64,000 nucleotides of DNA, taken from positions 1 through 64,000 of the IMG/VR virus record IMGVR_UViG_3300009506_000022; one strand, written 5' to 3'. Positions 5,760 to 61,072 of the stretch are shown here, piece after piece. Origin of the DNA: a virus. The notes under the pieces were generated by a model. That model saw nothing but the letters and a program-made list of their open reading frames with translations. It did not search any database and had not been told where the DNA came from. The position numbers and the translations under genes were made by a program. Within the stretch, counting starts at the first letter, position 1, and each line of letters opens with the position of its first letter.

Positions 5760-7674
5760 ACATGGTCTATTGGTAATAGAAAACTTTTGCTGTATTCAAC
5801 AGGCGAAAATCAATCTGGCAAAAGCTGGATTGACTCTTATCGTTGGAGACAACCAGGACACTAACGCAGCGATAAATAATGGTGCTGGGAAAACCACGAT
5901 TCCAAAAGCGCTTACTTGGTGTTTATATGAGGATACACTTGATGGCGATCGATATGATGAGGTTATTCGATGGGGAGAAGACAAGACGGTTGTGCGACAT
6001 CTTGTTAGAGTCAACAAGGATGTTTGGCAAATTGTGAGAAGTAGGACAAAAGGAAAGCCGAGATTAGGACTATCAGTTGCAAGAAATTTCAAAAAAGGGG
6101 TCAGCTTCATTCCGATAGAGGGTGAGCGCAAAGAACTTCAACATAGGATTGATAAGCTTCTTGGTAAAGACTTTCGGAGTTTTTGTAACACTACGCTTTA
6201 CGGCGAAGGTGATATTTCTCGTTTTTATTCTGCAACAGATTCTTCGAAAAAAGATAGTGTTCATCGGTTGCTAAAAAGTGATGTCTTCAAGAAAGCGATG
6301 AAATATATCAAACAGAATCATTACGATGGATTGAAGAAGAAGTTGGAAGTGTTGGAACATGAACTTGATGTGTTGAAAGGGAAGCTTGAAGGATACGATA
6401 TCAAACAAATAAAAATATCACACGAAGAATGGGAAGAAGAACGCGAAGATCGCGTTGTTCAATGCTCAGAAGAATGTCGGAAATATTTATCTGATATAGA
6501 AAGAACTAAGAAACAGGAAAGCGCTTCAAGGAAGGAATATGAAAAAGAGCTAAAAGAAATCAAAAAAAACATGCGAATTTTATCTATTCAAAAGAAGAGT
6601 TATTCAAAATCCACAGAAGAACTTCAAACACTTGAACGTGATATTGGGGAGGTTGTGGAAAGAAGGATAAAGGCTGGTGAAAATATCAAATCGAAAGAAG
6701 ACTCTTGGTTTCTTCTGCAAGGCGATGAGTGTCCAACCTGTACTTCTGATTTATCTGAAGGGAAAGCAAACGAATATAAAGAAGAAGTAACTAAGAGTCT
6801 AGAAAAACTAAAAGGAGAACTTGCGGATTTAACAAATAAAGATGCTGAACTGAGGATTGCGATATCAAAGAAGTATGAAGAGGTTGAGATGTTCAGAAAT
6901 GCAAACGATGAAATAAAAGGACTCAACACGAGAAAAGATGTTTTACATACTCTATTAGAATCTTCTGATGATAAGATTGCTGTTTATACAAAAGAAAGAA
7001 AGGTGTTGGCCGAACAGGCATTGAAAAAAGCAAAGAAGATAGAGCAAGAGAAAAACCCTCACAGCGATCTATTACAAAAAACAGAAGAAAATATCAAAAA
7101 GATAAACAAAAAGATTACCGAAAAGAGAAGTGAACTAAAAACGGTTCGAGACGATTTTGCTCATTACGGGTTTTGGGTGAAAGGTTTCGGTCCTGGTGGC
7201 CTTCCTTCGTTGCTTCTTGATAGTAAGATGGATTTCTTATCAGAGCGTGCAAATGATTATTTGCTAACGCTTGCTGATGGTGACATTTCTGTTTCATACA
7301 AAACACAAAGAGAGCTGAAACAGAAAGGTCAGATGAGGGATGAGATTGATGCTCAAGTTATCATCGAAGGAATTCCAAACGTGAAACCAAGTAAAGCTCA
7401 AAAAAGGAAACTCGATATTGCGAGCGATCTTGGTTTGATGGATATGGCTGTTTCTAGAAACGGCCATTCGAATCTTTTGATGATGGACGAAGTTCTTGAT
7501 GGAATGGATTCAGAGGGTGTTAGGCGTGTTCTTGATTTGATTCATAGACTTCGTGCAATTTATCACAGCATATTTGTGACAACACATGAGGCTGGTTTAC
7601 TTGAAATATTTGATCGAGCTATTTGTGCTCGAAAGAAAAATGGTGCAACAAACGTTTTTACCATGAAGGGGTAA
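5752..7674 (+). CDS. sbcC: SbcC/Rad50-like (T4 gp46-type) ATPase subunit
   Basis: SMC-family ATPase partner of the upstream nuclease. The N-terminal Walker A is NGAGKTT (about residues 43-49). A long coiled coil (about 190-480) is interrupted by a zinc hook, CPTC at residues 327-330. The C-terminal lobe has the signature-like region KPSKAQKRKLDIA and Walker B LLMMDEVLDGMD (about 574-585), then a D-loop/H-loop region (FVTTHE). The signature motif reads PSKAQKRKL rather than the usual LSGGQ, as in several phage gp46 proteins. At 640 residues it is shorter than bacterial SbcC and close to T4 gp46. Confidence 0.9.
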   Translation: MIEHGLLVIENFCCIQQAKINLAKAGLTLIVGDNQDTNAAINNGAGKTTIPKALTWCLYEDTLDGDRYDEVIRWGEDKTVVRHLVRVNKDVWQIVRSRTKGKPRLGLSVARNFKKGVSFIPIEGERKELQHRIDKLLGKDFRSFCNTTLYGEGDISRFYSATDSSKKDSVHRLLKSDVFKKAMKYIKQNHYDGLKKKLEVLEHELDVLKGKLEGYDIKQIKISHEEWEEEREDRVVQCSEECRKYLSDIERTKKQESASRKEYEKELKEIKKNMRILSIQKKSYSKSTEELQTLERDIGEVVERRIKAGENIKSKEDSWFLLQGDECPTCTSDLSEGKANEYKEEVTKSLEKLKGELADLTNKDAELRIAISKKYEEVEMFRNANDEIKGLNTRKDVLHTLLESSDDKIAVYTKERKVLAEQALKKAKKIEQEKNPHSDLLQKTEENIKKINKKITEKRSELKTVRDDFAHYGFWVKGFGPGGLPSLLLDSKMDFLSERANDYLLTLADGDISVSYKTQRELKQKGQMRDEIDAQVIIEGIPNVKPSKAQKRKLDIASDLGLMDMAVSRNGHSNLLMMDEVLDGMDSEGVRRVLDLIHRLRAIYHSIFVTTHEAGLLEIFDRAICARKKNGATNVFTMKG

Positions 7675-22292: not shown

Positions 22293-22375
22293 TGGATATC
22301 TCAGAAGTCGTATTCGTGGCATGGTGTGTTATTGGGATACTTTTTATCATATTGGTGGTGAACGGAAAGCGTTAG
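22292..22375 (+). CDS. Tiny single-pass membrane protein, 27 residues
   Basis: MDISEV, then a hydrophobic stretch VFVAWCVIGILFIILVV, ending NGKR: one transmembrane helix with a basic end. Overlaps the upstream stop and the downstream GTG by one base each, and AAAGGTG lies before the ATG. The tight coupling on both sides supports real translation. Possible membrane modulator; function unknown. Confidence 0.5.
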   Translation: MDISEVVFVAWCVIGILFIILVVNGKR

Positions 22376-23595
22376 TGAAGCCGATAAACATCGAGTTGTT
22401 TTGTTGTTCTGGTGGCATGTCGAAGGGGTTCAAGGATGCTGGAATCCAGTTTGATATCGTAGTTGATAGCGATATCGATGCGTGTAACAGCTATGAAGCC
22501 AATATGGGGGAGAGACCAATCCAGATGGATGTAAAAGATTTCCTTCGTTTGGTTAAATCTGGAATGAAGCGAGATATCAATCTATTGGTTGCCGATCCGC
22601 CATGCACGCCATGGTCGCGAGCGGGAAAGAAGAAGGGATTGGCGGATTCGCGAGATATGATACTGGCGACCATCGAGATTCTGGAGCTGTTGAAGCCGCG
22701 ATTTTGGCTGATAGCGAACGTTCCTGGATTGGACGATTCAAACAACTGGAAAACGGTTCAGCGCACGATAGGAAGGCTCACAGGAAGCGGATATTGTATT
22801 GACTACCGCAAGCTGAATGCGGCTGATTACGGCGTTCCGCAACGAAGGATAAGACCCTTTTGGTTTGGACATCGTGGTGGTGACTGTCTGAGTTGGCCTA
22901 AACCAACTCATGGGAACCCCAAAAGCATCGGACACGCTCTATTTGGGGATAACCGCCAACCATGGGTGACATGCAAGGATGCGTTACAACACCTCGAGCT
23001 CGAGGAACTCGGAGAACCGCGGCGATTGAAATCAATAAGCGCGAAGCACAAGCCGAATGAACCAGATGATGTCAGTGGAACCATTAGGAAGAGTGGAGGT
23101 TCATCGGGTTCAAAAACGATAGCGTTGCATCCCAAACATCCACCGAACGAACCCCACAAACCATCTGGAACCATCAGAGGTGGAGGTAGCGGTCACAGCG
23201 CGCCAAAGGTGTATTTGACGTTTCATGACAAACATCCAATCAATCGGGTAGATGAGCCCTCACATGTTGTGAACGCGAAACATCACGGATGTTCTGGCGG
23301 TCAAGCGATGGAATGGCCATGGGATAGGGTGGCGACCACGATAACACAGGATTCCAGGTTGACACCCCCGGGACATCACGATGGCGGAAGTTATATGACA
23401 ACACCAAATGTCATCATTTTGAGCGAGCGTGCCGCTTCAATACTTCAGGGATTCCCAGATGGTTGGGTGTTCTGTGGACAGACGAAGAAGGCGAGATGGT
23501 CGCAAATAGGCCAAGCGATGCCACCACAGTTGGCTTGCGCGGTTGGAAAGAAGATAAAGGAGTTGATATGTCAGACAGTGTGTCAAAAGCAATAA
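22375..23595 (+). CDS. C5-cytosine DNA methyltransferase with altered motif VI
   Basis: SAM-dependent methyltransferase fold for the C5 position of cytosine. Motif I IELFCCSGGMSKGF; motif IV DPPCTPWSRAG with the catalytic cysteine; motif VIII PQRRIRPFW; motif IX region LQGFPDGW; motif X QIGQAMPPQLACAVG. Motif VI, normally ENV, reads I-A-N-V-P at residues 113-117, so the catalytic glutamate is alanine. The target-recognition region holds three related segments around NEP/DEP ... SGTI/SHVV. GTG 22375 starts right before the KPINIELF strand. It may protect phage DNA, be impaired, or do different chemistry. Confidence 0.85.
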   Translation: MKPINIELFCCSGGMSKGFKDAGIQFDIVVDSDIDACNSYEANMGERPIQMDVKDFLRLVKSGMKRDINLLVADPPCTPWSRAGKKKGLADSRDMILATIEILELLKPRFWLIANVPGLDDSNNWKTVQRTIGRLTGSGYCIDYRKLNAADYGVPQRRIRPFWFGHRGGDCLSWPKPTHGNPKSIGHALFGDNRQPWVTCKDALQHLELEELGEPRRLKSISAKHKPNEPDDVSGTIRKSGGSSGSKTIALHPKHPPNEPHKPSGTIRGGGSGHSAPKVYLTFHDKHPINRVDEPSHVVNAKHHGCSGGQAMEWPWDRVATTITQDSRLTPPGHHDGGSYMTTPNVIILSERAASILQGFPDGWVFCGQTKKARWSQIGQAMPPQLACAVGKKIKELICQTVCQKQ

Positions 23596-34987: not shown

Positions 34988-35494
34988 ATGGAAAGAAATG
35001 CTGTTATCTCTATGTGTGGAAAATATCGCTATTGGTTATCTCGAAAATGGGATGATATTAACGATAACGAAATGGTTTGTTGGGTGATGTTGAATCCAAG
35101 TATTGCAGATGGAAATGTTGACGATCCAACAATCAGGAAATGTATTGGGTTCAGCAAACAAATAGGATCTGGCGGACTTCAGGTTGTAAATCTTTTTGCG
35201 TATCGAGCGACGAATCCAAGAGAACTTTTGAATGTTCGCGATCCAGTTGGTGTACAGAACTGTAGATGGTTGCGAGATATTCTTCTCAAAAGCAACAAGG
35301 TTATTTTTGCATGGGGTTCTAATGGAGGAAAGAAAAAGCTTATAGATGTAGGTCCTCTTATTTTAATAAACAACATAGTTTTGTTACAAAACATGCAAGA
35401 AAAATTTTTTCGTTTTGGTCTTACCAAAAACGGTCAACCACTTCATCCGCTTATGTTGCCGTATAGTAGCAAACTAGAGAGGGTTTATGAGTGA
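34988..35494 (+). CDS. DUF1643 family protein
   Basis: Conserved family of unknown function seen in phages and bacteria. Blocks: YRYWLSRKWD, then VMLNPSIADGNVDDPTIRKC, QVVNLFAYRATNPREL, FAWGSNGG and HPLMLPYSSKL. The MLNPS.AD...D.T. and N.FA.R.T signatures are diagnostic. It directly precedes and overlaps the helicase gene by eight bases. Confidence 0.8.
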   Translation: MERNAVISMCGKYRYWLSRKWDDINDNEMVCWVMLNPSIADGNVDDPTIRKCIGFSKQIGSGGLQVVNLFAYRATNPRELLNVRDPVGVQNCRWLRDILLKSNKVIFAWGSNGGKKKLIDVGPLILINNIVLLQNMQEKFFRFGLTKNGQPLHPLMLPYSSKLERVYE

Positions 35495-37457
35495 ACTTAT
35501 AGAAGGGTTAAACGACAGACAACAAGAAGTTGTTTATCATGATCAAGGACCAATACTTGTTGGAGCTGGCGCTGGTAGTGGGAAAACGCAAGTCTTGATT
35601 AGAAGAGTCGGATATCTCGTTATAGAAAGAGATGTTGATCCGACTAGGATTCTTGCTGTGACTTTCAGCAAAAGTGGCGCTGAGGAAATGCAAGAACGAC
35701 TTGATTCTCTTATTGGAGAGAGTGGAGCCAGGATTGGAACATTTCATTCTTTAGCATATGAGATCATCAAACACGAAAATTCAGAATATCGAACATGGAT
35801 TGTTGATGACAAAAATAGATATCGTGTTTGTATCAAGGAAGCCGTTGGTTATAAAGGAATCAAATGGAACAATGCAGATGTCAATATTCTGGAGCGTTTT
35901 ATTGAAATCTGTAAAGCTTATGGTGCGCGACCTGGTTCAGCGAAAGCTTTAGAGATAGCACGAAGTTTTGCAAAAAAGAAGCCTAGCTTATCTACGATTC
36001 CGGTAAAAATGATTATGGCTTATGATGAAGCGGAAGGGATTCGAGAATCTAAGCGTCTCATTTGTTTTGACGACATGTTGCTGGAAGCCGTTGAGTTGCT
36101 CACGAACAAGCTTATTTGTAAACATTGGGCGAATAAATACGACTACATTTTACAAGATGAAGCTCAAGATCAAAACTGGTGTCAGTTTCAAATAGGCGAG
36201 CTTCTTGCCAAAGAACATCGCAACTACATGCTGGTTGGCGATCCTTGTCAAACCATATACTCATTTCGTGGTGTTGAGGTAAAGAGATTTTTTGAGCTAA
36301 GAGATCGATGGAATGCAAAGTTCATTTCGATGAACCGAAATTATCGAAGTGGACAATCGATTATTTCTAGTGCCAATTCGTTGTTGCGAAACATGGATCC
36401 TAAAATAGCCTTGAGCGAAATGGTTTGTGAACGATCTGTTGATAGCGAAGTTTCGGTTGTTAGTTACGCAACGCTGGACGAAGAAGGAAACGGCATTGCG
36501 AATCAGATCAAACAGTTGTTGAGTGATGGAGAACAACCTAAGAATATTGCTGTGTTGTATCGCACCAACGCGCAGTCTAGAGCACCAGAGGAATCGTTGA
36601 TTTCTGCTGGTGTTCCATATCAAGTCATAGGGAGTATAAACTTCTATGAACGTAAAGAGGTCAAACATCTTCTATCTTATTTGAGATTAGCGGCTCTTAG
36701 GGGTAGTTTCCAAGATGTTGCTGGTTCAATAAATAGTCCATTTCGATTTCTTGGGAAGAAGTTTCTTGAAAGGGTAGAGAAGGCATCATCGAAAGGCAAA
36801 AAGATAGCTGATTGGCCAGGTCTTGTTCAAGACGTTTGCAAACAGGCTGGCCTTCAATACAGGCAGAAACAGAGCGCTGAAGAATGGATCGATTTAGTTC
36901 GTGAGATGACGGCTCGAGCGATAATAAATCAAACAGAAGAGTGTACGCCAGAGGATTTAGAAGAAGCGAAACCAGCTTCGATCCTTTCCGATATTGTACG
37001 CGAAACAAAATATAAAGAATGGCTGAAACAAGAAGAGGGCGATGAGACTCCAGACAACAGTAGGGTTTCGAATGTCATGGAGATGATTCGCGCCGCAAGC
37101 CGCTTCGATACTGTTGACGCTCTTTTGGATTATGTCGATATGACACTAGAGGCTTCAAAGACCAGTTCTAAAAACGGCGGAGGACCAAACAAAGTTACGT
37201 TGTGTTCGATCCATCGTTCGAAGGGTTTGGAATGGGCGAATGTTTTTATCGCTGGAGTATGCGAAAAGATTCTTCCTCATGGTAGATGCGAAGATATTGA
37301 AGAGGAACGTAGGATTTTTTACGTTGGGATTACGAGAGCTCAAGAGCGGTTGGCGATAAGCGCTGTAAGAAAGATTGCCGTTGGGGGAGACATGATAGAG
37401 GTTGAACCGAGTCGATTCATCAAAGAGATCGGTGGCGAAATAAAACAAGAAGGGTGA
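35487..37457 (+). CDS. UvrD/Rep/PcrA-type superfamily 1 helicase
   Basis: ATP-dependent 3'-5' DNA helicase. Motifs in order: Q-motif NDRQQEVVYH, motif I GAGAGSGKTQV (residues 27-37), Ia VTFSKSGAEEM, II LQDEAQDQN, III VGDPCQTIYSFRG, IV region VLYRTNAQSRAPEE, V CSIHRSKGLEWANVF and VI YVGITRAQERL. 656 residues, close to bacterial Rep/UvrD. Likely helps replication restart or repair alongside the recombination module. Confidence 0.95.
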   Translation: MSELIEGLNDRQQEVVYHDQGPILVGAGAGSGKTQVLIRRVGYLVIERDVDPTRILAVTFSKSGAEEMQERLDSLIGESGARIGTFHSLAYEIIKHENSEYRTWIVDDKNRYRVCIKEAVGYKGIKWNNADVNILERFIEICKAYGARPGSAKALEIARSFAKKKPSLSTIPVKMIMAYDEAEGIRESKRLICFDDMLLEAVELLTNKLICKHWANKYDYILQDEAQDQNWCQFQIGELLAKEHRNYMLVGDPCQTIYSFRGVEVKRFFELRDRWNAKFISMNRNYRSGQSIISSANSLLRNMDPKIALSEMVCERSVDSEVSVVSYATLDEEGNGIANQIKQLLSDGEQPKNIAVLYRTNAQSRAPEESLISAGVPYQVIGSINFYERKEVKHLLSYLRLAALRGSFQDVAGSINSPFRFLGKKFLERVEKASSKGKKIADWPGLVQDVCKQAGLQYRQKQSAEEWIDLVREMTARAIINQTEECTPEDLEEAKPASILSDIVRETKYKEWLKQEEGDETPDNSRVSNVMEMIRAASRFDTVDALLDYVDMTLEASKTSSKNGGGPNKVTLCSIHRSKGLEWANVFIAGVCEKILPHGRCEDIEEERRIFYVGITRAQERLAISAVRKIAVGGDMIEVEPSRFIKEIGGEIKQEG

Positions 37458-47888: not shown

Positions 47889-48797
47889 ATGTTTTCATCA
47901 CCGATGATTAAATCAGGAAATGGAATCAAAAAGGTTCGAACTGGTTGGAAGCCAGATATTTTTGATCCACGAGATTTTGGCGAGCGTTCGCCACTCATTA
48001 TTGAGACAACAAAAGGACTCAACGTTTTGAGTCTGAGAGCCGAACAGCTTCCGAGAGAAGTTGTTTATTTTGACTATTGTGGTGAGATGGACGATCAAGG
48101 TGCGCTTGGTTCATGTGTGGCCTTTGGAACGTTGAACCATGTTGAATGCATGCAAGCACTTGCAACGGGAAAACATATTCGCGGTTCGCGGCGTGCTTTA
48201 TACAAGATCATGCGAAACCTCATGAAGGTGACGGGTGACACAGGAGCGTGGAACAGATTAGCATTTCAGGCATTGAGACTTTTTGGCCTTCCTCTTGAAG
48301 AATATTGGGAATACGATATCGAGAACTTTGATGATGAAGTTTCCGCTTTTGCTTTGGGGACTGGATTCAAGGCGATAAGCGACTTGAATTATTTCCGGCA
48401 TGACACTATCGATTTACCGCAAGAATGCATTCCAAGTTCGATCAAGAAATGGATGGCTGCTGGAGTGACCTGTGTAGGTGCGTTTTATGGTTGTTCGAAT
48501 TTCAATCGAGGTGGTAGACCTGGAGACATCCCGATGCCTCGCAACAGTGAGCGTCCATCGTGGGGACATTCAGTACATTTCTGTGGTTACAATGACGACT
48601 ACGAAATAGTAGATGTTGATACTGGAGAAAAGACGATAGGCGCCTTTTATCTCGAGAATTCATGGGGGAACGACAACGGAGATGGCGGGTTTTATGCCAT
48701 TCCGTATCAGTACATTATGGCGGGATATGCCCAAGATTTTTGGTCTTTAGTAGATCATAAATGGGTTGATCTCGACGATTTTGGCGCGATTGTTTAG
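47889..48797 (+). CDS. Papain-like (C1A-type) cysteine protease
   Basis: Catalytic set of the papain family: oxyanion Q70 and nucleophile C76 in DDQGALGSCVAF, H227 in WGHSVHFCGYND, N257 in YLENSWGNDNG, then GGFYAIP. 302 residues with no signal peptide. Located first in the late module, just after a terminator and before the terminase genes, so it may be a virion or assembly protein, or an injected enzyme. Ribosome site CAAGGAGAAAAGTAG. Confidence 0.85.
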   Translation: MFSSPMIKSGNGIKKVRTGWKPDIFDPRDFGERSPLIIETTKGLNVLSLRAEQLPREVVYFDYCGEMDDQGALGSCVAFGTLNHVECMQALATGKHIRGSRRALYKIMRNLMKVTGDTGAWNRLAFQALRLFGLPLEEYWEYDIENFDDEVSAFALGTGFKAISDLNYFRHDTIDLPQECIPSSIKKWMAAGVTCVGAFYGCSNFNRGGRPGDIPMPRNSERPSWGHSVHFCGYNDDYEIVDVDTGEKTIGAFYLENSWGNDNGDGGFYAIPYQYIMAGYAQDFWSLVDHKWVDLDDFGAIV

Positions 48798-49974: not shown

Positions 49975-50400
49975 ATGGCAGATTTTAGTCCATATGTACC
50001 GTTGAGTGAGGACAACTTGCTCGAGGATAAATCAATCAATTCAGCTCCTCAGCGTGCACCGATTTTCACTGAGCACCGTTCAGTTTCTGGCGCGATTGAT
50101 AGTGGCGACATAACAACTCGTGGTTGGGGAATGGTGATGTCTGAGTTCAAAACAGCTGTGATAAGAGTTGTTCCTGGAACGACTGCGAATATCACAGTTG
50201 AAGCTCGATTTTGGAGTGAGGATGCTGGCAAGTTTATTTCTGCAAATCCAGCGCTTCAACAAGCTGGTGCTGGTGCTGGAATTCCTTTTGATTACACTGT
50301 TGAGGTAAACGGAAAGATTCTTTTTGTTTATGTAACTGGAACAATCGGAAATGGCGCAAAGATTCAGATAGCTGGTGTTGATTTTATTTCAGAACCGTGA
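49975..50400 (+). CDS. Beta-rich structural-type protein, 141 residues
   Basis: Unknown, but in the structural module. Beta-sandwich-like segments (TAVIRVVPGTTANITVEARF, PFDYTVEVNGKILFVYVTG, AKIQIAGVDFI) with an acidic N-terminus. Could be a decoration, neck or tail-related protein. Good AAGGTGATAAC ribosome site. Confidence 0.6.
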   Translation: MADFSPYVPLSEDNLLEDKSINSAPQRAPIFTEHRSVSGAIDSGDITTRGWGMVMSEFKTAVIRVVPGTTANITVEARFWSEDAGKFISANPALQQAGAGAGIPFDYTVEVNGKILFVYVTGTIGNGAKIQIAGVDFISEP

Positions 50401-51914
50401 TGGCAAAGACTGCGGAAATAGTACCACTCATTAGAGGTGCAGCAAAGAAGCTTGAGAGATTAGAGCGAAGCGAGTTGGTTTCTGTCTATGAACAGTATCG
50501 AACAGCTTCTAATGAGTGGCTTCGCAGGCAGATAGTAGAAAACAATAGAATAGATATATTAGCGACTGTCATCCTTGGATATAAAGTAAAACCGTTTCAT
50601 TTGGCAATGTTGAAATGGCAGTTTCGTTACCCTCAAAATCTTGTTCTATCGTTTCGTGGTTGTGGAAAATCAACGATATGCACAGTTATAAAAGCCATTC
50701 ATTTGCATTGTAAAAATCGTCAGCTTAGGATCTTGATTGTTTCGGAAAGTAAAGCAACAGCATCTGATATTTTGAGGGACATCAAAGGGCATTATGAAAG
50801 CAACGATAGGTTGGCTGAAGTTTTTGGTTCTTTTTACGATCCAAAAATTGTCTCGAAATGGGATGTTTCAGCAATATCTATTGTCGGATCGCGACTGACA
50901 CAAAAAGAGACTAGTATCATGTGTGCTGGTCCAGATACTCGGATCACAGGAAAGCATTTTGATGTTGGTTTGATCGATGATTTGGTTACAGAAGACAATT
51001 CGCGTACTGAACATATGCGTGTTCGCGTAAAAACTTGGTATTATAAAACATATAGGCCTTTGATTTTGCCGCCAAAAGAAGGTCTTGAACATAGGGGAGA
51101 GCAACATCATAACGGAACATTTTATCATTGGGATGATCACTATCATCACCTTGAAGCGAATGAACTAAAAGGCAAAGTTCTAAAAATTCCATCGTTAGAT
51201 GAAAACGATAACTCACCTTGGCCTGAAGAGTATTCAACTAAGTTTTTATTAAACCAAAAAGATGAGCTTGGTTCGATTGTTTTTGGTTCTCAATATCAGA
51301 TGGACACAGACGCAATGAAAGGTGAAATCTTTCAGTATGACGATTGCCACCAAATAGATGGAGCGGATTATCCCCCTATTTCTGACATGATCATAACGAT
51401 GGGATGCGATCTTTCTGCGGACGAGAAAGAACAAAAACAGAATGCGATGTTTGCCATTGCTGTTATTGGGATAACTGGCAACATAGCAAAAGATGATATT
51501 TATATTTATCTATTAGATTATTATTTGCAGCATTTGAGACCAAGCAAACAACCAGAAAAGGTTATTGAATATTTTGATATATGGAATCCTTTTAGAGTCG
51601 GAATCGAAACAAATCAATATCAAGCTTCTTTGAAAGAGGCTGTAAAGCTGAAACGACCACAGATGAATGTGATAAAAATTCATTCTAAGATAGATAAAAT
51701 AACTCGTGCGATAAATGATTCTAGATATTTTGAAAATGGAAGAGCGTTTTTCAAAAAAGGTGTGCACGCAAAGCCGATCGATCATTTAGTGTTGTTTTCT
51801 GCAAGATCGAAATACAAAGATTTTTTTGATGCTTATGATTTCGCGCTGTACGCGGCAAAGAAAAAGAGAAACAAACAAGGAAAGCAAAAACGAAAAGTTT
51901 TTGGTGTCTTATAG
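50400..51914 (+). CDS. terL: Terminase large subunit
   Basis: Packaging ATPase and nuclease. Walker A-like LSFRGCGKST (about residues 83-92), Walker B VGLIDDLVTED, coupling region FGSQYQMDTDA, then the nuclease domain beginning ITMGCDLSADEKEQKQNAMFAI (first catalytic Asp) and later FRVGIETNQYQASL. Length of 504 residues is normal. ATG 50400 overlaps the previous stop. With portal and scaffold downstream it defines the packaging module. Confidence 0.9.
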   Translation: MAKTAEIVPLIRGAAKKLERLERSELVSVYEQYRTASNEWLRRQIVENNRIDILATVILGYKVKPFHLAMLKWQFRYPQNLVLSFRGCGKSTICTVIKAIHLHCKNRQLRILIVSESKATASDILRDIKGHYESNDRLAEVFGSFYDPKIVSKWDVSAISIVGSRLTQKETSIMCAGPDTRITGKHFDVGLIDDLVTEDNSRTEHMRVRVKTWYYKTYRPLILPPKEGLEHRGEQHHNGTFYHWDDHYHHLEANELKGKVLKIPSLDENDNSPWPEEYSTKFLLNQKDELGSIVFGSQYQMDTDAMKGEIFQYDDCHQIDGADYPPISDMIITMGCDLSADEKEQKQNAMFAIAVIGITGNIAKDDIYIYLLDYYLQHLRPSKQPEKVIEYFDIWNPFRVGIETNQYQASLKEAVKLKRPQMNVIKIHSKIDKITRAINDSRYFENGRAFFKKGVHAKPIDHLVLFSARSKYKDFFDAYDFALYAAKKKRNKQGKQKRKVFGVL

Positions 51915-51923
51915 GAGGAATCG

Positions 51924-53717
51924 ATGGGAGAAATAACAAAAAACTCGAACTTGCCTCTTCCAGAATCCCCAGAATCTCTAGCGATAAGAAAAAGGAATGT
52001 TAGAGCTGTTTTGATAAATAGCGACATAATCAAAAAAGTTTCTACCGAAATAATAGAAAAACAAGAAGACACCGAAGTTGGAGGAAGCAAACAAGTAGAA
52101 ACCGAGTTTGCAAAGTTGATTTCTTCTGGACAAGCTATTGATCCACCTTTTGATATGTTTGTTTTATCCACTCTTTCTGAGTACAACTCGGAAATGGGAC
52201 CTTGCATCGAGGCAATGAGAACCAACATAGATGGATTCGGTCATCGCTTGGTTTATCGTGGCGATCCAAAAGAGCTTGAAAACGATAAGCCGTTGGCAAA
52301 GAAGGTCTTAGAAGAAAAGGTTAGATTGGAAAACTTCTTCTTGTATGCTGGGCTCGATGATTCGTTTACAAAGATCAGAAAGAAAATGAGAACTGATCTT
52401 GAAAAGACAGGGAATGCGTATTGGGAAGTTGTCCGCTCCATGAAAGGCGAGATTCAGTATTTTGTTCCAATAAAAAGCTATCAAGTTCGACTTACAAAAC
52501 GCGACAAAGAACCAACAGAAGTAAACTTTCCTGTAGTAAAAATAGGACCTGATGGTAAATCGATCAAAAACGATTCGTTCAAAGTAAATACTTATTTCAG
52601 GAGATTTGTTCAGATCACATCGACAACATCTGTTGGCGCAAAAAAAAGTTGGTTCAAACAGTTTGGCGATCCAAGAATAATGGATTGCAAAACTGGGAGT
52701 TATGTTTCTCAAGGCGACTTGGAAAACTTCGAAGATACTGGCAAACCGATGCCAGCAAGTAGAAGGGCAAACGAAGTCGTTCATTGGAAAATGAATGACG
52801 ATCGTTCCCCCTATGGATTGCCTCGATGGATTGGAATATTCCTTGATATTTTGGGAGACAGAAAAGCAAGCGAAATCAACTATATTACTTTTTGTAACAA
52901 TAATATTCCAAGCTTGATTATTGCGGTTTCGAACGGGCAACTAACACAAGATACAGTTGATCGCATCAAAGAGTTTTTCGAGAAAGTTCAAGGTGACGAC
53001 AACCGTTCGAAAGCACTTGTGCTTGAAGCAGAACCATCAGATGAAGATGATGGAGAGGATGCTGGCGCGACCAAGATTGACGTAAAAACGCTAACGGAAG
53101 CGCAACATGATGATGCGATGTTCCAAAACTATAGTCGAGAGAACAGAGAAAAGGTTCGTGTTATCTGGCGCCTTCCTCCTATTTTCACTGGTAGAGCTCA
53201 AGACTATACGAGAACAACGGCTGAAACTTCTAGAGCGTTAGCTGATGAGCAAATTTTCGCACCAGAACGAGACGATTTTGACGATTGGGTAAACCGTATT
53301 TTGTTTCCAAGAATGGGTGTTTTGTATCATCGTTTTCAATCGAACTCTCCAAATACAACTGATAACTCAGAACTTACAAAGATTCTTTCTGGCGCTGAGA
53401 AGACAGGAGGGATTACACCGCGGATCGCGAGAAAGGTTCTCGAGGATATTTTAAGCGTTGAACTTCCACCGTTTCCAGAGGACTTCAACCCAGATATTCC
53501 GTTTAGCCTGACAATGGCTGAAGCGGTAAAAAATATGGGAAACCCAGTTGAGCCAGGACAATCAGTTACAGCTCTAAAGGGGTTAGAGGATGTCGTGAAA
53601 CTAACTGGAACGCCACACCCATTGATTAGTGCATTGATACTTCTTCGAAAGTCGCTTGAAGTCGAATGGTTGAAAGAGGTTTCTGAATCAGAATCAGAAG
53701 AAGAACATGTTGCGTAG
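51924..53717 (+). CDS. Portal protein
   Basis: Dodecameric head vertex through which DNA is packed. Matches phage portal proteins: SEYNSEMGPCIEAMRTNIDGFGH near the start, RKKMRTDLEKTGNAYWEVVR, then RRANEVVHWKMNDDRSPYGLPRWIG, FCNNNIPSLIIAVSNGQLTQDTV, and RVIWRLPPIFTGRAQDYTRTT. 597 residues. GGAGGAATCG ribosome site just after terL; overlaps the MuF-like gene by 11 bases. Confidence 0.9.
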   Translation: MGEITKNSNLPLPESPESLAIRKRNVRAVLINSDIIKKVSTEIIEKQEDTEVGGSKQVETEFAKLISSGQAIDPPFDMFVLSTLSEYNSEMGPCIEAMRTNIDGFGHRLVYRGDPKELENDKPLAKKVLEEKVRLENFFLYAGLDDSFTKIRKKMRTDLEKTGNAYWEVVRSMKGEIQYFVPIKSYQVRLTKRDKEPTEVNFPVVKIGPDGKSIKNDSFKVNTYFRRFVQITSTTSVGAKKSWFKQFGDPRIMDCKTGSYVSQGDLENFEDTGKPMPASRRANEVVHWKMNDDRSPYGLPRWIGIFLDILGDRKASEINYITFCNNNIPSLIIAVSNGQLTQDTVDRIKEFFEKVQGDDNRSKALVLEAEPSDEDDGEDAGATKIDVKTLTEAQHDDAMFQNYSRENREKVRVIWRLPPIFTGRAQDYTRTTAETSRALADEQIFAPERDDFDDWVNRILFPRMGVLYHRFQSNSPNTTDNSELTKILSGAEKTGGITPRIARKVLEDILSVELPPFPEDFNPDIPFSLTMAEAVKNMGNPVEPGQSVTALKGLEDVVKLTGTPHPLISALILLRKSLEVEWLKEVSESESEEEHVA

Positions 53718-54819
53718 TCAAACAATACATAGCCATATGCATGATGGCATTTCTGCGATTGACGCTATTATCGGTAAGGCGTTGAAGGTGAGTGAACTTG
53801 CCAGGATTGCGAAGATCGAAACGAATCTTAGAAAGTATATTGGTCGCGAATGGGACTCGTTGGCTTTAGATGCATCGAAACAAGCTGCAAGTGTAATCCG
53901 TTCTGGTTCTGGCGATCCGAATAATGATGATATCAACAGAATGATGGTGAAGATAAATCGCGTAATGAGCGATTGGAACGACAACATAGAGAAGCGATAT
54001 ATAGATGACAACAAAGAGGTTTATGAACTTGCGCATATTGCAGCGATGAAGCGTTCTCTTGGCAAAAACAAGAAGCAATTAGAATACAATACGCCAATAG
54101 GGCCTGAAACGAAGGTAAGCAAAGCAAAAGATATCGTTTATGTTACAGGAGATGATGGCGCGCGAGTTCCTGTTGTTCTTCCCTCATTCAACACAGTTGA
54201 TCTTGCGGCCATTGATGCTTTTGAGGAACATCAAGTTTTTTGGATCGGTCGACATTATAAAGAAAACGTTTCAAACACAGTTGCTGAAACCGCTCGAAAC
54301 ACGATTGTGAAAGCTGGTCTTGGACGCGAAGAAGCTGGAAAGATCGCGCAAAAAGTTGTTCGTGAAACGCTGGATATCGTGAAGGTTCCAGGTGGATTCA
54401 GTGGAACATCAACACAGTATTTCGAAGGCTTGGTTGCGAACGCTGTTACAACACAACGTGTTGCGGCTCAACTCACGAGTTTCGAGCGATTTGGATACAC
54501 AAAACAAACTATTGTAAATCCTCGTGATCAGAGGACGTGTCCTATATGCGATTTGATGGACGGAAAAGTTTTTGATGTTTCTGATGGAAGGCGAACTTTA
54601 GATAGATTGGTCAAAGCGAAGAATCCTACTTCTGTAAAAAAGATTCAGCCATTTATGACAGTTGCGATCGCAAGAGAACTTACTGGTGGTAAACGCGGTC
54701 CTATTGGAGCCAAACAGACTAAAGCTATTGTCGCTAGAGGCAATTCGATTCCCCCATTTCATTTTAAATGTAGGTGCAGTATCGATATAACAGAGGAAGA
54801 AGAAATCATTTCTTTTTGA
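53707..54819 (+). CDS. MuF/SPP1 gp7-like minor head protein
   Basis: Minor head protein that enters or lines the prohead. The C-terminus has the MuF signature: NPRDQRTCPICDLMDGKVFDV and then PPFHFKCRCSIDI, with four cysteines and a histidine. N-terminal 150 residues are helical and basic. 370 residues. Some MuF proteins are ejected with the DNA; here it directly precedes the large multidomain protease protein. Confidence 0.85.
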   Translation: MLRSQTIHSHMHDGISAIDAIIGKALKVSELARIAKIETNLRKYIGREWDSLALDASKQAASVIRSGSGDPNNDDINRMMVKINRVMSDWNDNIEKRYIDDNKEVYELAHIAAMKRSLGKNKKQLEYNTPIGPETKVSKAKDIVYVTGDDGARVPVVLPSFNTVDLAAIDAFEEHQVFWIGRHYKENVSNTVAETARNTIVKAGLGREEAGKIAQKVVRETLDIVKVPGGFSGTSTQYFEGLVANAVTTQRVAAQLTSFERFGYTKQTIVNPRDQRTCPICDLMDGKVFDVSDGRRTLDRLVKAKNPTSVKKIQPFMTVAIARELTGGKRGPIGAKQTKAIVARGNSIPPFHFKCRCSIDITEEEEIISF

Positions 54820-54828
54820 GGAGTCAAT

Positions 54829-57800
54829 ATGAAAAACGAGCTACCAAAATCTGGAATAGTAGTTACCCCATCAAGTATGGCTGTTGCGATTTCCGAAGGT
54901 AGAAAAACTATCTTGGTGAAGACGAGAAGCTACAATATTGCCAACAGAGAAATGTTACTTCTTGATCGCAACAAAGCGTTGGGTGTTGTAAAAATCGGAG
55001 AAGAACAGGTTCTTCAAAACGATAATTTTGGCGAACATGAAGAACAACATCTGATTACAAAAGAGATCAGAAAAGACTGGTCTGAAGCTCAACCATCATG
55101 GGAAGAAGGGCCGTTCTTTCAATGGTCTGTCGAGATGGTTCAGAAATTTGATGAACCAATAAAGACTTATGTTGAGATTGGACCAACAGTTGTTATAGAA
55201 GAAATAAGTGAAATCGATATTGAAAAACGAGGACCTTTTGGACGTTGGGGTAGTTCAGGAATGTATGCTGAATGGCTTATAAAGCAGTTTCCAGAACACA
55301 AGAAGTATGTCGAGCCATTTGCGGGTTCTGCTTCTATTTTCTTTCGAAAGCAACCTTCAGAATCTGAAGTTCTTGCTGACTACGATAGCGAGGTTGTAAA
55401 TGCTCTGAAAACAATTAAAAAGTTGACGGAAGAACAATTTACAGTTCTCGAGTCTAAAGATCGCATCTTGTCCGAAGATAAGTGGAAGGAAATGAGAAGT
55501 AACATTCCTGAAGATTCTTTAGATAGGCTTCATCGAATGTTGTTCTTGAATGGTGGGGGTTGGAGTTCGAGTCTTATAAGCTATAGAATTCATAAAGATG
55601 GAAAGCAATCGTATGACCCGAATAGGCTGAAGCCGTACAAAGAGAGACTGAATAAAGGAAAAGTATCAATAGAATGTGCTGATTGGAAAGCGACGATTAA
55701 TAAACATGATTCAAAAGACACATTTTTCTTTATTGATTGTCCATATCCTGGAGAGTGGAGCAAAAAAGCCGATGATATTCCAAATGACGATCCAAAACGT
55801 GGCGAAAAAGTTCCTCTTGAGGAGTATGGAAAAGTCTTGAAGTCGATCAAGGGAAGTTTCGTTTTTGCGCTTGGTGATCACAAAGAACATCTCAAGTTTT
55901 TGAAATCACTTGAAGGTGTTGAAATAAAAACGTTTAGTGGAACTGAAGCATCAAATAAAGGTGGAACAAAAACAGCAAAGAGATATTTTGCTTTTAAAAC
56001 AGCGGCGTGTGGGAGCAAAAAACCAAAAAAGAAATCGTTTGACGAAGTCGAAACAGATGCAATGGAGTTTATCGATATAACAGAGGACCAACATGTTTTT
56101 GACGGGTTGATCCTAACAACAGAAAAAGAGGTGATTGACTACAGCACTTCTGAGTTAGTTGATATTCATAAATTGCTTCATCAGATATATTCAGAATTAC
56201 CAGATGGTTGGAACACATCTGATGTTGTCAATTTACATTCGATGGTTGTTGATGAGTTGTGCTCAAGAGAAAAAAATCACCCGTCACCTCCAGATAATGG
56301 CCTTGACGATATTTCTTTTGATTTTGAGTGTCTTACATCGAAACAAAAGAAATGGTTTGAAGAAAATTGCGACGAAGTTCCAGAAATTGAAGAGAGCATA
56401 TCTTATCTAGAAAAACGTCGACTTGCTTTATGGGGTTCCACCGCTGGAAAAAGCAGAGTTGCCAAAAGAATTGTGTCGATGATCCCAGAACACAAAACGT
56501 ATGTCGAGCCGTTTGCTGGTGGTGCTGCTGTTTTTTATGCAAAAGAGCCAAGCGAAAAAGAGGTTCTTTGTGATTCAAATCCAGAAGTTACACACGCATT
56601 CAAGTTTGTTCAATCTGCAAGTGATAACGAAATCGAAGCGCTTAAGAAAATGGATTGGACAGTAAGCAAGCCTCGAGCAAAATCGGTTCATGAAATGAAA
56701 CCAAAAGGAAGCGCTGAGAGATTTTTTAGGTTTGCTTATAAGAGATATGCGCTTTTTATGCGAAATGAAAATAGGATTACCGCAATAGATCCAGCAAAAG
56801 AAGGGAAGGCGCCAGATATAGCGAGTAGGATTTCCGAAACAAGAGAGAGACTGAAGAGGGTTTCTATTGTTGAAGGTGGATATGAAAAAGCGGTTAGTAA
56901 GTTTGATTCGCCAGAAACATTCTTTTATTTCGATCCGCCATATCCAAGTTTGGTCCAGGAGGTTGGAGAGAAAAGCTTTGATGAGGAAGCTTTCATCAAA
57001 ACACTGAAAGGCTTGAAGGGAAAGTTTCTTCTCCATTATGAAGCAAAAGCGAAAAAGAAATTTGATGGCGTTGATGGTTGGATTGTAAAAACCATTTCTG
57101 TTGCTCGTACTCCAGGTCATACAAAAGGAGGTAGCGCGCCAGGAAAACTTCTTGAAGTTAGAAATTATGAACTACCCAAAAAGAAGGTGAAGAAAAACGA
57201 TCCGTATTTGATGGCACCAGAAGGAGAGTTCCCTTTTTCAATACAACACCATTGGATTGGAAAATCGATGAACTCAGTTTTGAGAATCGGTGTTGTTCCA
57301 GACAGATGTGCGATCGGTTGGGCGATGAATACTCAACAAACTGAAGTAAGCGAACCAGTAACAACTCTTGCGAAATCTCGAGAGATATCAAAAAACTCAA
57401 GCAATATTTTCAGTGTTGATTGGTCTATTGGTAGATGGAACAAGAAAGGTGAAGAGGAACAACATATAGAGATTCTTTGTAAACGCCAATCTGTTTTTTC
57501 TCCTGTTTGGCTCGACATTGAGGCGAAAACCGCGAATCCAAAAGAAGGTGAACCATTACCTCTTGGCGGGAATCCGAAATATCCAGGTGTTTTCGAGATT
57601 GTAGAAAAAGGGGTAGTTCAGTTTGGCGCTCAAAGCGAAACTCTTCATGAATATTTTCTTTCTGGCACTGGATTCAAAGGAAAAACTATCTTTCGTATGA
57701 TGAAGATCAAAAAATCGATAGATGGTGATTGTCATGTTTGTGGAGTTGACGCAATAGTTGATGTTGGTTGGGCCGATGAACTCCCAGTGAAACTTTGTAA

Positions 57801-58959
57801 AAAATGCTATGACGATTGGCAAAAAAAGGAAGTGATAGAAAAATCATGCATTCCACAGATAGAATATGGTGACGATATTTCGTTCTGGGTTGGAACCAAT
57901 TCGAAAGATGCTGTTCCATTTGTGCTATCCGAAAAAGCGGTGAGTAGCGAGTGGATGCCACCAGATGGCGTTGCCGCTTTACCTAAAGAGATCAAAAAAC
58001 AAATTCCTAAAGAGTACGAATATTGGAATGAAGCTGGTAGTGATGCGAGACAGATGAGAGATCAACTTGTAAAGGCGATTCAAGAAAAAGATATTCCTCC
58101 TTTTGATTTCGAGTCAATCTTCAAATCTGATAGCCAGAAATCTGGATTCGTTTTACAAAAGCAAATCTGGGAAGATAAGAGCGATCCACGCTGGTTCATT
58201 AGAATTGATACAGGCAAACCAGAAATAAACGTAATTGAATTGCAGTCAGACCCAACCAATATTGAAAAAAGTGAAGTCCGAGTTTGGGTAGAGAAATATA
58301 AGTCTTCAATGGATATCGAGGGGTTGTTGTCGGTTGCTCATTATCTAAATCCAAAGAAAGGGATTAGCTCGTATCTGAAGAAGGTTGATGTTGGAAACGC
58401 TTCTGTGTTGTCTGATTCTGAAGAATCTACTCAAATTGAGTTTAAAGGAGATATTCTGGATGGAGTATTTACGTTAAAGCGAAATAATAACGAGTACTTA
58501 TTAGAGAGAAGCGGCAACGACACAATTGCTGAAATAGAGAAAATGATTGATTTTGAACTTGTTTTGCCAATCGATCATTTTGAAATCCACAAAGCAAAAA
58601 AAGGCAAGGAAAAACGGTTAGTTACTGGAATAGTACTTGAACCAGATATGGTTGATGCTCAAGACGACACCATCAAGTCTGAAGTGATCGAAAAAGCAGC
58701 TCATATGTTTCTTACTCAGTACAACAAAGAAACGAAACTTGGTTTGATGCACACAACGTTTGGCGATATCGGATTTGAATTGTGTCAATCCTTTCTCTCT
58801 CCTGTTGAGTACACTGTAGGGAAAAAAACAGTAAAAAAAGGAAGCTGGGTAATGACAGTACATGTCACTGATGATAATAGATGGTATGATATAAAAAATC
58901 GCAGGCTCACTGGATTTAGTATTGGTGGGAAGGCGAGGATGGCGAAGAAGAATGGATAA
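54829..58959 (+). CDS. Multidomain head protein: ASCH-like, two Dam methylase domains, LigD-PE-like region and XkdF protease
   Basis: 1376 residues. About 1-125: ASCH/PUA-like (ALGVVKIGEEQVL, HLITKEIRKDW). About 135-390: D12-class adenine methyltransferase, with RWGSSGM and YVEPFAGSASIFF (motif I) and FIDCPYPG (motif IV, D-C-P-Y, near 302). About 530-775: a second D12 domain with WGSTAGKS, YVEPFAGGAAVFY and FDPPYPS (near 701). About 790-1220: FPFSIQHHWIGKSMN, ALPKEIKKQIPKEYEYW and GFVLQKQIW, like LigD 3'-phosphoesterase or ligase-associated segments, with a CHVC...CKKC zinc ribbon near 970. About 1247-1372: XkdF prohead-protease domain with LVTGIVLEPDMVDAQ, LGLMHT and GSWVMTVHV and GFSIGGK. 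The order is unusual; the domains may be separated by the protease during maturation. GAGGAG ribosome site. Confidence 0.8.
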   Translation: MKNELPKSGIVVTPSSMAVAISEGRKTILVKTRSYNIANREMLLLDRNKALGVVKIGEEQVLQNDNFGEHEEQHLITKEIRKDWSEAQPSWEEGPFFQWSVEMVQKFDEPIKTYVEIGPTVVIEEISEIDIEKRGPFGRWGSSGMYAEWLIKQFPEHKKYVEPFAGSASIFFRKQPSESEVLADYDSEVVNALKTIKKLTEEQFTVLESKDRILSEDKWKEMRSNIPEDSLDRLHRMLFLNGGGWSSSLISYRIHKDGKQSYDPNRLKPYKERLNKGKVSIECADWKATINKHDSKDTFFFIDCPYPGEWSKKADDIPNDDPKRGEKVPLEEYGKVLKSIKGSFVFALGDHKEHLKFLKSLEGVEIKTFSGTEASNKGGTKTAKRYFAFKTAACGSKKPKKKSFDEVETDAMEFIDITEDQHVFDGLILTTEKEVIDYSTSELVDIHKLLHQIYSELPDGWNTSDVVNLHSMVVDELCSREKNHPSPPDNGLDDISFDFECLTSKQKKWFEENCDEVPEIEESISYLEKRRLALWGSTAGKSRVAKRIVSMIPEHKTYVEPFAGGAAVFYAKEPSEKEVLCDSNPEVTHAFKFVQSASDNEIEALKKMDWTVSKPRAKSVHEMKPKGSAERFFRFAYKRYALFMRNENRITAIDPAKEGKAPDIASRISETRERLKRVSIVEGGYEKAVSKFDSPETFFYFDPPYPSLVQEVGEKSFDEEAFIKTLKGLKGKFLLHYEAKAKKKFDGVDGWIVKTISVARTPGHTKGGSAPGKLLEVRNYELPKKKVKKNDPYLMAPEGEFPFSIQHHWIGKSMNSVLRIGVVPDRCAIGWAMNTQQTEVSEPVTTLAKSREISKNSSNIFSVDWSIGRWNKKGEEEQHIEILCKRQSVFSPVWLDIEAKTANPKEGEPLPLGGNPKYPGVFEIVEKGVVQFGAQSETLHEYFLSGTGFKGKTIFRMMKIKKSIDGDCHVCGVDAIVDVGWADELPVKLCKKCYDDWQKKEVIEKSCIPQIEYGDDISFWVGTNSKDAVPFVLSEKAVSSEWMPPDGVAALPKEIKKQIPKEYEYWNEAGSDARQMRDQLVKAIQEKDIPPFDFESIFKSDSQKSGFVLQKQIWEDKSDPRWFIRIDTGKPEINVIELQSDPTNIEKSEVRVWVEKYKSSMDIEGLLSVAHYLNPKKGISSYLKKVDVGNASVLSDSEESTQIEFKGDILDGVFTLKRNNNEYLLERSGNDTIAEIEKMIDFELVLPIDHFEIHKAKKGKEKRLVTGIVLEPDMVDAQDDTIKSEVIEKAAHMFLTQYNKETKLGLMHTTFGDIGFELCQSFLSPVEYTVGKKTVKKGSWVMTVHVTDDNRWYDIKNRRLTGFSIGGKARMAKKNG

Positions 58960-59803
58960 GCCGCAATCTTCAAAACAAAACCTAAAAGATGCCAACGAGA
59001 TTCTTGAGCTATTCGTAGGCGAGGTTTCGGTGGTAGATAAGCCAGCTAATCTGCGAGATTTTTTGGTAGTCAAAAGAAGAAACAAGGAGGACTCGATGGG
59101 ACAAGCTTTTCAGCAGGATCCTGAGGTCGACAATTTAGAGTTAGTAGAAAAACTAGCTTGGTCAGACCTTGAGAAAGCGGCGCTGCCTGATGATCTAAAG
59201 AAAATGATCGACTCAGCAGTTGCCTGGATGAAAAAAAACGCAAGTGCTGAGAACGCGCCGAAAGAAGCGATTCTTGCTGCTACAGCACTTCTATCAAAGG
59301 TTGCTGGCGGGAAGTTCCCTGGCACAGCACCGAAATCGAAGGATGATGATAAAGACAAGAGCGATGATAGCAAAGATAAGAAAAAGTCTTTGTTGGTTGT
59401 TGGAGATGACGGTTCTTTTGAGATCGGCGGTGAGCCTATCGAAAAAGGGAAATCTCAGTTTACCAAAGAAAGAGTTGACGCTTTGAAAAATGCAATAGCG
59501 CCTTTGATTGGCGTATATGCTCAAGTTGATGAAGCCGGTGCGAAAGAGATGGTTCAAAACCTTGTTGGCGAAACTCTTTCTGGTGAAATAAAGTGGACAG
59601 AAAAGCGTGTTCCAGAACCAACCGATATCGCAGAACAGATCAAGAAGGCAATGGAACCTTTTGCTGAACAAATCAAAGAGGTTGGAAAGCGAGTTGAAGA
59701 CCTCGAGGGTTCTCGCTCAGCTCCACAATCTGATCCTGGTGATGGTGACACCACCGACAAACAAAAAAGTGACAACCCTTGGGATGGCTTGCCGATAGGC
59801 TAG
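58952..59803 (+). CDS. Putative scaffolding protein with prohead-protease-like N-terminal segment
   Basis: Two start sites are likely. ATG 58952 overlaps the protease stop by eight bases and yields residues 1-48, including VGEVSVVDKPANLRDFLVVK, a segment normally found at the end of XkdF/U35-type proteases. ATG 59096, 144 bases later in frame, has a near-perfect AAGGAGG and yields a 235-residue acidic, helical scaffold with a charged KDDDKDKSDDSKDKKK linker and a final coiled coil. Nested scaffold starts are known in phages (lambda C/Nu3). It probably guides capsid assembly and is removed by the protease. Confidence 0.7.
   Translation: MDKPQSSKQNLKDANEILELFVGEVSVVDKPANLRDFLVVKRRNKEDSMGQAFQQDPEVDNLELVEKLAWSDLEKAALPDDLKKMIDSAVAWMKKNASAENAPKEAILAATALLSKVAGGKFPGTAPKSKDDDKDKSDDSKDKKKSLLVVGDDGSFEIGGEPIEKGKSQFTKERVDALKNAIAPLIGVYAQVDEAGAKEMVQNLVGETLSGEIKWTEKRVPEPTDIAEQIKKAMEPFAEQIKEVGKRVEDLEGSRSAPQSDPGDGDTTDKQKSDNPWDGLPIG
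59084..59098 (+). promoter_or_regulatory. Strong internal ribosome binding site and second start
   Basis: AAGGAGG (59084-59090), then ACTCG and ATG (59096). Much stronger than the signal at 58952, so the shorter scaffold form is probably the abundant one. Confidence 0.65.
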
Positions 59804-59860: not shown

Positions 59861-61072
59861 ATGGGTTTATCAAATGAAGAACTTGCAATGATCCAGAAGG
59901 CTATTACCGCGGCAAACGTCCTAGTTTCTGCAGGAAAGCTAAATCCAGTACAGGCCTCGAAGTTTCTCGATTATGTGATCGACACCACCGTTATGAAGAA
60001 CAATGTTCGTATTGTTCGTTTTCGTAACGAGAAGATGGAGATCAATAAACTCGATATCGGGAATCGAGTTATGTTTCCTGGAACCGAGTATCAAGCTCCA
60101 CAAGAGCGTCAAGGGGTTACATCTTCCAAGCTCGAGCTTCAACCGAAAGAGGTTGTTTGTGCTTTCGATATCACCGACACCTTCAAGAATCAAAATATCG
60201 AAGGTGATAACGCCGCTGATCACATCATGCGGATGTTTGCAACGGGTTGGGGAAACAACATGGAAGAGACAGCGATCAACGGTGATGTCGTTGGTCCAGC
60301 TGGTCTTGAAAATGATGTGTGGGGGTCTGGCTCAACCACACAATACGTCCTTGATTCTTTGCTGGCTTTATTTGACGGTTGGTGGCGTAAAGCAGATGGC
60401 GCTCATCTCGTTAATATGAATGGTGCAAATGTTGGAATCAGTGTTTTTCGGAAGATGTTGACTGCAATGCCAGCCAAGTTCAAAAAGCAACGGCGTAATC
60501 TTCGATGGCTTGTTTCCGATGAGTTGGCGGATGTGTATATCGAAAAGGTTTCAACACGCCAAACAGCGAAGGGTGATCGTGCGGCTGAAGGCGAGGAACA
60601 ATCTCCTCTTGGAATCCCCATGGTGAGAATCCCGGGATTGCCTTTTAACCCAAAGATCGTTCAACATGTCGCGCTTCCGAACGACACCGCAGTAGCTTTA
60701 CGCTACAAACCGATTGTTTCTGCTTCAGAGGTAGTGACACCAAGCACGTTGGATCGAACTCCAGTGACTCCATATGTTGAGGGAACCGCCTATGATATGG
60801 ATTACGTCAATGGGACGATCACAAATCCAAGTGGTGACGCAACTATCGGTGATGGCGATACTGTCAAGATCACTTACGAAGCGGCTCCTCAAATCATTCT
60901 AACCCATTGGCAGAACTTCATTCTTGCTTTTGGGATGGATGATCTCAAAGTCGAGAGACAACGCAATATCCACAAGCGCGCTGATGAGTATGTTATGAGT
61001 GGTCGGTTTGACCAACTGATTGAAAACCTCGATGCTTGCGTCAAGGGATACAATCTAGGGGATAGTCTATAG
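59861..61072 (+). CDS. Major capsid protein (HK97 fold)
   Basis: Main shell protein. Begins with a helical arm (NEELAMIQKAITAANVLVSAG, QASKFLDYVIDTTVMKNNVRI), has the P-domain-like PAKFKKQRRNLRWLVSDELADVY and the core strand PLGIPMVRIPGLPF, and ends with the helical/strand region ILTHWQNFILAFGMDDLKVERQRNIHKRADEYVMSGRFDQLIENLDACVKG-like blocks. A beta-rich insertion at about 286-344 (SEVVTPSTLDRTPVTPYVEG, DYVNGTITNPSGDA) resembles an Ig-like or decoration domain. AGGAGGAAATC ribosome site. Position after scaffold and before small head genes supports the call. Confidence 0.85.
   Translation: MGLSNEELAMIQKAITAANVLVSAGKLNPVQASKFLDYVIDTTVMKNNVRIVRFRNEKMEINKLDIGNRVMFPGTEYQAPQERQGVTSSKLELQPKEVVCAFDITDTFKNQNIEGDNAADHIMRMFATGWGNNMEETAINGDVVGPAGLENDVWGSGSTTQYVLDSLLALFDGWWRKADGAHLVNMNGANVGISVFRKMLTAMPAKFKKQRRNLRWLVSDELADVYIEKVSTRQTAKGDRAAEGEEQSPLGIPMVRIPGLPFNPKIVQHVALPNDTAVALRYKPIVSASEVVTPSTLDRTPVTPYVEGTAYDMDYVNGTITNPSGDATIGDGDTVKITYEAAPQIILTHWQNFILAFGMDDLKVERQRNIHKRADEYVMSGRFDQLIENLDACVKGYNLGDSL

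Follow-up and report, generated by a model that had tools for sequence, protein, structure and literature searches.

The polyprotein gene and its surroundings

The window analysed here, a stretch of 64,000 nucleotides, consists of positions 1 to 64,000 of the 98-kb virus record IMGVR_UViG_3300009506_000022 (IMG/VR). Within it, a single open reading frame (ORF) at 54829..58959 runs from ATG to TAA on the plus strand, like every feature written below as start..end, and encodes a polyprotein of 1376 amino acids. Its N-terminal part is made of an ASCH domain, a D12 adenine methyltransferase, a helical module and a second D12 methyltransferase, and its C-terminal part of a LigD-phosphoesterase-fold domain, an insert with two CxxC pairs, a linker, a second phosphoesterase-fold domain and an XkdF prohead protease. 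An initial annotation, drawn from the letters of the DNA, had described the same intact frame of 1376 residues and most of these domains in the right order. Every domain that it named was recovered by Pfam, by profiles or by AlphaFold models searched with Foldseek, and PHROGs agrees with the Pfam assignments; what had been overlooked is the second phosphoesterase-fold domain.

The gene lies within the head module. Pfam and PHROGs identify, upstream of it, the terminase large subunit (50397..51914), the portal protein (51924..53717) and, immediately before it, a MuF-like minor head protein (53707..54819). It is followed by a scaffold-like gene (58952..59803), the start of which overlaps the polyprotein stop, and by a phrog_1623 virion structural protein in the capsid position (59861..61072; PHROGs). 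These neighbours confirm the proposed placement between MuF and scaffold. The protein combines two or more catalytic domains of different kinds in a single chain, and its gene accompanies portal and terminase genes, two traits by which polyvalent proteins are recognized. A direct search of viral contigs found no close relatives of the whole window protein. A gene for a papain-family (C1) cysteine protease, unusual for a phage, is found shortly before the terminase gene (47889-48794).

Domains of the polyprotein

The ASCH domain occupies residues 1-124 (54829..55200). A profile of the N-terminal domains of eight family members matches the ASCH structures 2dp9 and 1wk2 (2dp9 at 3.9e-4), and with the AlphaFold model (pLDDT 83.8) Foldseek retrieves 2dp9 (3.5e-6), the Zymomonas ASCH (ZmASCH), YqfB and the TRIP4 ASCH bound to double-stranded DNA. 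The ASCH-like domain suggested initially is therefore borne out by both profile and fold.

The MethyltransfD12 profile of Pfam (PF02086) matches two stretches of the chain (4.5e-30, 105.7 bits against a cut-off of 22). The first methyltransferase (residues 136-396; 55234..56016) has EPFAGSA at 162 and DCPY at 303, and the second (residues 535-788; 56431..57192) has EPFAGGA at 560 and DPPY at 702. Both copies carry motif I (EPF.G), while motif IV is intact in the second only, so that the proposed D12 pair stands as to profile and motif I and half stands as to motif IV. From these motifs, the second methyltransferase is probably active; the first is possibly impaired, and its activity is doubtful. 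Between the two is a helical module (residues 430-513; 56116..56367) which is repeated across the family, some of the relatives' copies weakly resembling PF03013. The 98-kb record, which may be incomplete, contains no further D12 genes. The same virus has a separate C5-cytosine DNA methyltransferase gene (22321-23592), as well as RecA (3487-4617), an SbcCD-like pair (4620-7671) and UvrD (35487-37454). Rarity of GATC in the 98-kb record (457 sites seen, 668 expected under an order-2 Markov model) was considered as a trace of methylation or restriction and set aside as weak, CTAG and GTAC being low too.

The next region had been compared with the LigD 3'-phosphoesterase, and two tandem domains of this fold are in fact present, since the structural model gives LigD phosphoesterases while the profile match falls on the second copy. 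For residues 780-1376, Foldseek with the AlphaFold model (pLDDT 78, with low values over XkdF) gives just five strong matches in the PDB, all of them archaeal or Pseudomonas LigD phosphoesterases (3p4h, 3n9d, 3n9b, 3p43 and 5dmp), the best being 3p4h at 6.7e-5. A profile built from 14 members over residues 780-1240 matches 3p4h (5.8e-5) and 3p43 (3.6e-4), over the second copy. Domain 1 (residues 785-960; 57181..57708), assigned with AlphaFold and Foldseek, carries H808, N815, V817 and R819 at its core; domain 2 (residues about 1100-1235; 58126..58533), assigned by family profile and model, has a degenerate motif. In relatives, the first copy reads HWRGKSVHxDxR, which aligns with the H-H-D-R of LigD phosphoesterase, and this core is intact in 27 of the 29 non-redundant members checked. 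The two folds are separated by an insert with CxxC pairs at 968-971 and 990-993 (57730..57807), compatible with a zinc ribbon (C968, C971, C990 and C993 as putative ligands) and found with the same Cys pairs in four relatives (L011, L013, L015 and L024, L numbers being our own for family loci), and by a conserved linker module (residues 1020-1085; 57886..58083; PFVLSEKAV...LPKEIKKQIP...YW). No ATP-dependent ligase (PF01068) was found in the protein or in the 98-kb record, which may be incomplete.

The chain ends in the XkdF (Peptidase_S78_2) prohead protease (residues 1245-1376; 58561..58956). Pfam matches PF14550 at residues 1253-1370 (5.1e-26, 91.6 bits against a cut-off of 24), and the profiles have thereby recovered both the D12 and the XkdF domains on which the initial proposal depended. 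The domain keeps H1308 and S1364 (TGFSIGG), the invariant His and Ser of XkdF proteins, as well as S1321, with a candidate catalytic serine among them, and the protease is probably active. A strand motif, VSxVDxPAN, opens the gene after the protease (58952-59803, as VSVVDKPAN), as it does in L011, L013, L015, L023, L024, L031, L048 and L050. In other proteins it is in one chain with the protease, standing after the core in psiM100 and before it in the Lactococcus XkdF; the protease fold may accordingly be completed by the scaffold protein. Such a split protease was rejected as a clade-specific trait, since the stand-alone XkdF phages that were checked are arranged similarly.

A family in uncultivated viruses

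Relatives were sought by alignment-based scans of IMG/VR, which gave 16 and then 34 loci, and by an XkdF-based scan which gave 260 relatives, of which the best 80 were retained. In all, 86 non-redundant ORFs were counted, a sample biased towards query-like proteins, with domains called by home-made hidden Markov models and a subset checked with Pfam. XkdF is present in 66 of the 86 and is the last domain in all 66. One or more domains of the methyltransferase, phosphoesterase/tail, ligase or nucleotidyltransferase kinds accompany XkdF in 48 of these 66, and the premise that a prohead protease normally stands alone or is fused to scaffold fails for the XkdF proteins sampled from uncultivated viruses. 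The phosphoesterase is found in 48 of the 86 ORFs, with a DNA ligase in 33 of those 48. An ATP-dependent DNA ligase is thus present in most phosphoesterase-bearing members and a nucleotidyltransferase in many, while D12 or C5 methyltransferases occur in some. The KxDG motif is kept in most family ligase domains; the nucleotidyltransferase appears to be of the Pol-beta type, as judged from the GGLANNGRTKGDIDVFI motif seen in the alignment and not from a profile match. Beyond IMG/VR, a tblastn search of 50,697 phage records for the phosphoesterase module found only the ANMV-1 virus, and in a genome collection two contigs of metagenome-assembled genomes carry relatives, one with a portal gene upstream.

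The architectures are varied. Three relatives (L015, L024 and L066) have the domain order of the window protein with one methyltransferase instead of two, and because they occur on independent contigs we reject a chance fusion or an assembly artefact. L031 unites a C5 methyltransferase, ligase, phosphoesterase and XkdF, and L075 a nucleotidyltransferase, two methyltransferases, ligase, phosphoesterase and XkdF, while L122 and L125 consist simply of a methyltransferase fused to XkdF. A metallo-beta-lactamase fold domain is added in L047:7317-7865 (residues 1122-1304) and L056:1489-2022 (residues 28-205); it adjoins ligase and methyltransferase in family members and is possibly a nuclease. In L105 (915-3332), a 2H/LigT-like phosphoesterase domain is joined to XkdF, near-identically to L106 and L108-L110. 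In most relatives tested with PHROGs, the gene is preceded by portal or MuF genes and followed by capsid genes, phrog_1623 or others. In L031 the place of the window's MuF, upstream of the polyprotein, is taken by a 1065-aa protein (2295-5489) with a D12 methyltransferase.

Could such chains be a passive genomic accident, in which selfish or stray enzyme genes happened to join the reading frame of a late gene and have no functional tie to it? Domain order and content do vary greatly among viruses, and fusions as simple as those of L122 and L125 exist. The same kinds of fusion recur, however, with XkdF last in every case and with identified added domains that all act on DNA, RNA or nucleotides, and the long open frames are under purifying selection at the same gene place. 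In six related pairs of other family members, dN/dS (NG86) lies at about 0.04-0.40 in each domain measured, a constraint that passive fusion would not produce. We regard an accident as very improbable.

Short XkdF proteases are also found, such as L004 (PAK_P1 gp3, 2983-3453) and L010 (UNO-G1W1), and those read contain the protease only. The stand-alone XkdF of Pakpunavirus (PAK_P1 gp3) shares protease family and gene place with the polyprotein, but it is only 156 aa long and has no methyltransferase domain. Yet among the 182 Pseudomonas phage records that match XkdF, many are annotated "DNA methyltransferase," as is phrog_1530, a name likely carried over to short proteases from true methyltransferase-XkdF fusions.

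Comparison with known systems

Polyvalent proteins carry disparate catalytic domains in a long chain in a late or portal context, including an adenine methylase and an embedded peptidase interpreted as freeing or processing their parts (Iyer et al., 2017; PMC5512222), and the window protein shares all of these traits. Their "assemblin-like" peptidase is always C-terminal, and P1 DarB is a head-borne methylase which protects DNA in cis (PMC5512222). The differences are in content: the text of that study has no XkdF, ASCH or LigD-type phosphoesterase, and "ligase" there refers to RNA ligases only. In turn, the common although not obligatory hallmark domains of polyvalent proteins (zincin peptidase, SNF2 helicase-methylase dyad) have no Pfam match in the window protein. 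Effector domains joined to MuF, portal or a capsid-processing serine peptidase have been interpreted as packaged and injected (PMC9503650; PMC5512222). The Nudix, ART and 2H fusions among them (PMC9503650) resemble the present family in that an effector is joined to a head-assembly protein, but the cargo here is one of DNA methylation and end healing and sealing, with up to about seven domains. In another paper from the group of Iyer et al., XkdF itself is called unrelated to SH-type prohead peptidases (PMC7824862).

The ANMV-1 protein AJP62006.1 (KP703175), annotated as an "ATP-dependent DNA ligase," has the tandem phosphoesterase-fold core and linker of the window protein (25% identity over window residues 894-1234), and its gene is directly downstream of the portal. 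It differs in having a nucleotidyltransferase and a ligase, in lacking methyltransferase and XkdF, and in having lost the final R of the phosphoesterase core. The phosphoesterase fold is common to the family and to LigD and archaeal LigD-type enzymes (3n9d, 3p4h, 3p43, 5dmp). LigD joins phosphoesterase, ligase and polymerase, and family members likewise add an ATP ligase and a nucleotidyltransferase, a set that functionally resembles LigD by analogy. However, the LigD polymerase is of the AEP type and the family enzyme Pol-beta-like, the domain order of the family varies, and the window protein has no ligase and lacks two core residues. In the open-access papers searched we did not find the combination of XkdF and ASCH with DNA ligase, a tandem LigD-phosphoesterase fold and Dam-type methyltransferases, which is weak evidence of novelty. 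That effectors can be tied to head proteins is in general already known; it is the domain content that appears new.

A cargo for the virion?

We lean towards regarding the window protein as a polyvalent protein of the head module, the DNA-acting parts of which accompany the genome; we infer release, packaging, injection and target alike. The link between DNA-acting domains and head assembly, put forward in the initial annotation, gains support from the conserved gene place, the terminal position of XkdF, the varied accretion of domains and the purifying selection in related pairs, and the packaging and injection steps draw on the precedents of DarB, the polyvalent proteins and the Nudix, ART and 2H fusions (PMC5512222; PMC9503650). 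The C-terminal XkdF would draw the whole chain into the assembling prohead. During maturation it would cut prohead proteins and probably the polyprotein's own linkers, and the ASCH domain, the two D12 methyltransferases and the two phosphoesterase-fold domains would be trapped in the head alongside the genome and pass with it into the next cell. The cargo of the wider family would be an end-healing and sealing kit composed of phosphoesterase, ATP-dependent ligase and often a Pol-beta-type nucleotidyltransferase, plus adenine or cytosine methyltransferases. In the window virus it would serve adenine methylation of the entering DNA, an anti-restriction function like that of DarB in phage P1, while ASCH and the phosphoesterase folds would act as DNA- or end-binding parts. 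Adenine methylation is the likeliest surviving DNA activity of the window protein, because it has no ligase and its two phosphoesterase copies have degenerated. "Repair" of incoming DNA, as first suggested, would fit the wider family better than the window protein, because the window phosphoesterase is probably not catalytic.

Several observations weigh against this reading. Phosphoesterase domain 1 of the window protein has lost two of the four core residues (H to N and D to V, giving H-N-V-R), and from their motifs both copies are probably inactive; the LigD likeness holds for the fold and fails for the catalytic core. The DCPY that replaces the usual DPPY in methyltransferase 1 is unique among the 32 methyltransferase domains of the family, 27 of which keep DPPY. 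In XkdF, the nearly invariant Glu of a Glu-Ser pair is Gln1320. Part of the protein may thus be decaying or structural. Methylation could also take place before packaging, which would make an injected methyltransferase unnecessary. Alternatively, the DNA-acting domains might now be mainly structural DNA-binding parts of the head, in a modified internal or scaffold protein whose enzyme activity is irrelevant in this virus. The eroded phosphoesterases and the DCPY speak for it, but methyltransferase 2 retains motif I and DPPY, and relatives retain nearly all their active sites under purifying selection; we consider this quite unlikely.

The gene's neighbours, portal/MuF on one side and scaffold on the other, would also suit domains whose work is done in the producing cell, either at the packaging motor or within the prohead, and which the protease then removes so that they leave the head. 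XkdF proteases normally clear scaffold during prohead maturation, which agrees with such a removal. Methyltransferases would complete methylation, while ligase, phosphoesterase and nucleotidyltransferase, a plausible quality-control set for DNA under packaging, would heal concatemer nicks and 3' ends. For such tasks, however, free late enzymes would suffice with no tie to a protease, and where other effectors are fused to MuF, portal or protease they have been interpreted as injected (PMC9503650). Such action in the producing cell appears unlikely to us, and the packaged and injected polyvalent protein remains the reading that we prefer. A broader proposal extends it to a widespread, undescribed class of tailed viruses packaging a LigD-like healing, sealing and methylating polyprotein freed by its own XkdF, the window protein being a methylation-only derivative devoid of ligase and phosphoesterase activities; this we put forward tentatively, as plausible though somewhat short of probable.

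Implications

Head-borne DNA-protecting proteins are known from few cases, such as P1 DarB. The present family, with several dozen members or more in uncultivated viruses, ties ligase, LigD-type phosphoesterase, nucleotidyltransferase and methyltransferases to a head-maturation protease, and its methyltransferase-XkdF fusions suggest why so many XkdF records of Pseudomonas phages read as methyltransferases. With this family, it becomes directly testable whether virions contain a kit for repairing and methylating DNA. If they do, the virion would bring a ready repair and anti-restriction kit into its host before any viral gene is expressed.

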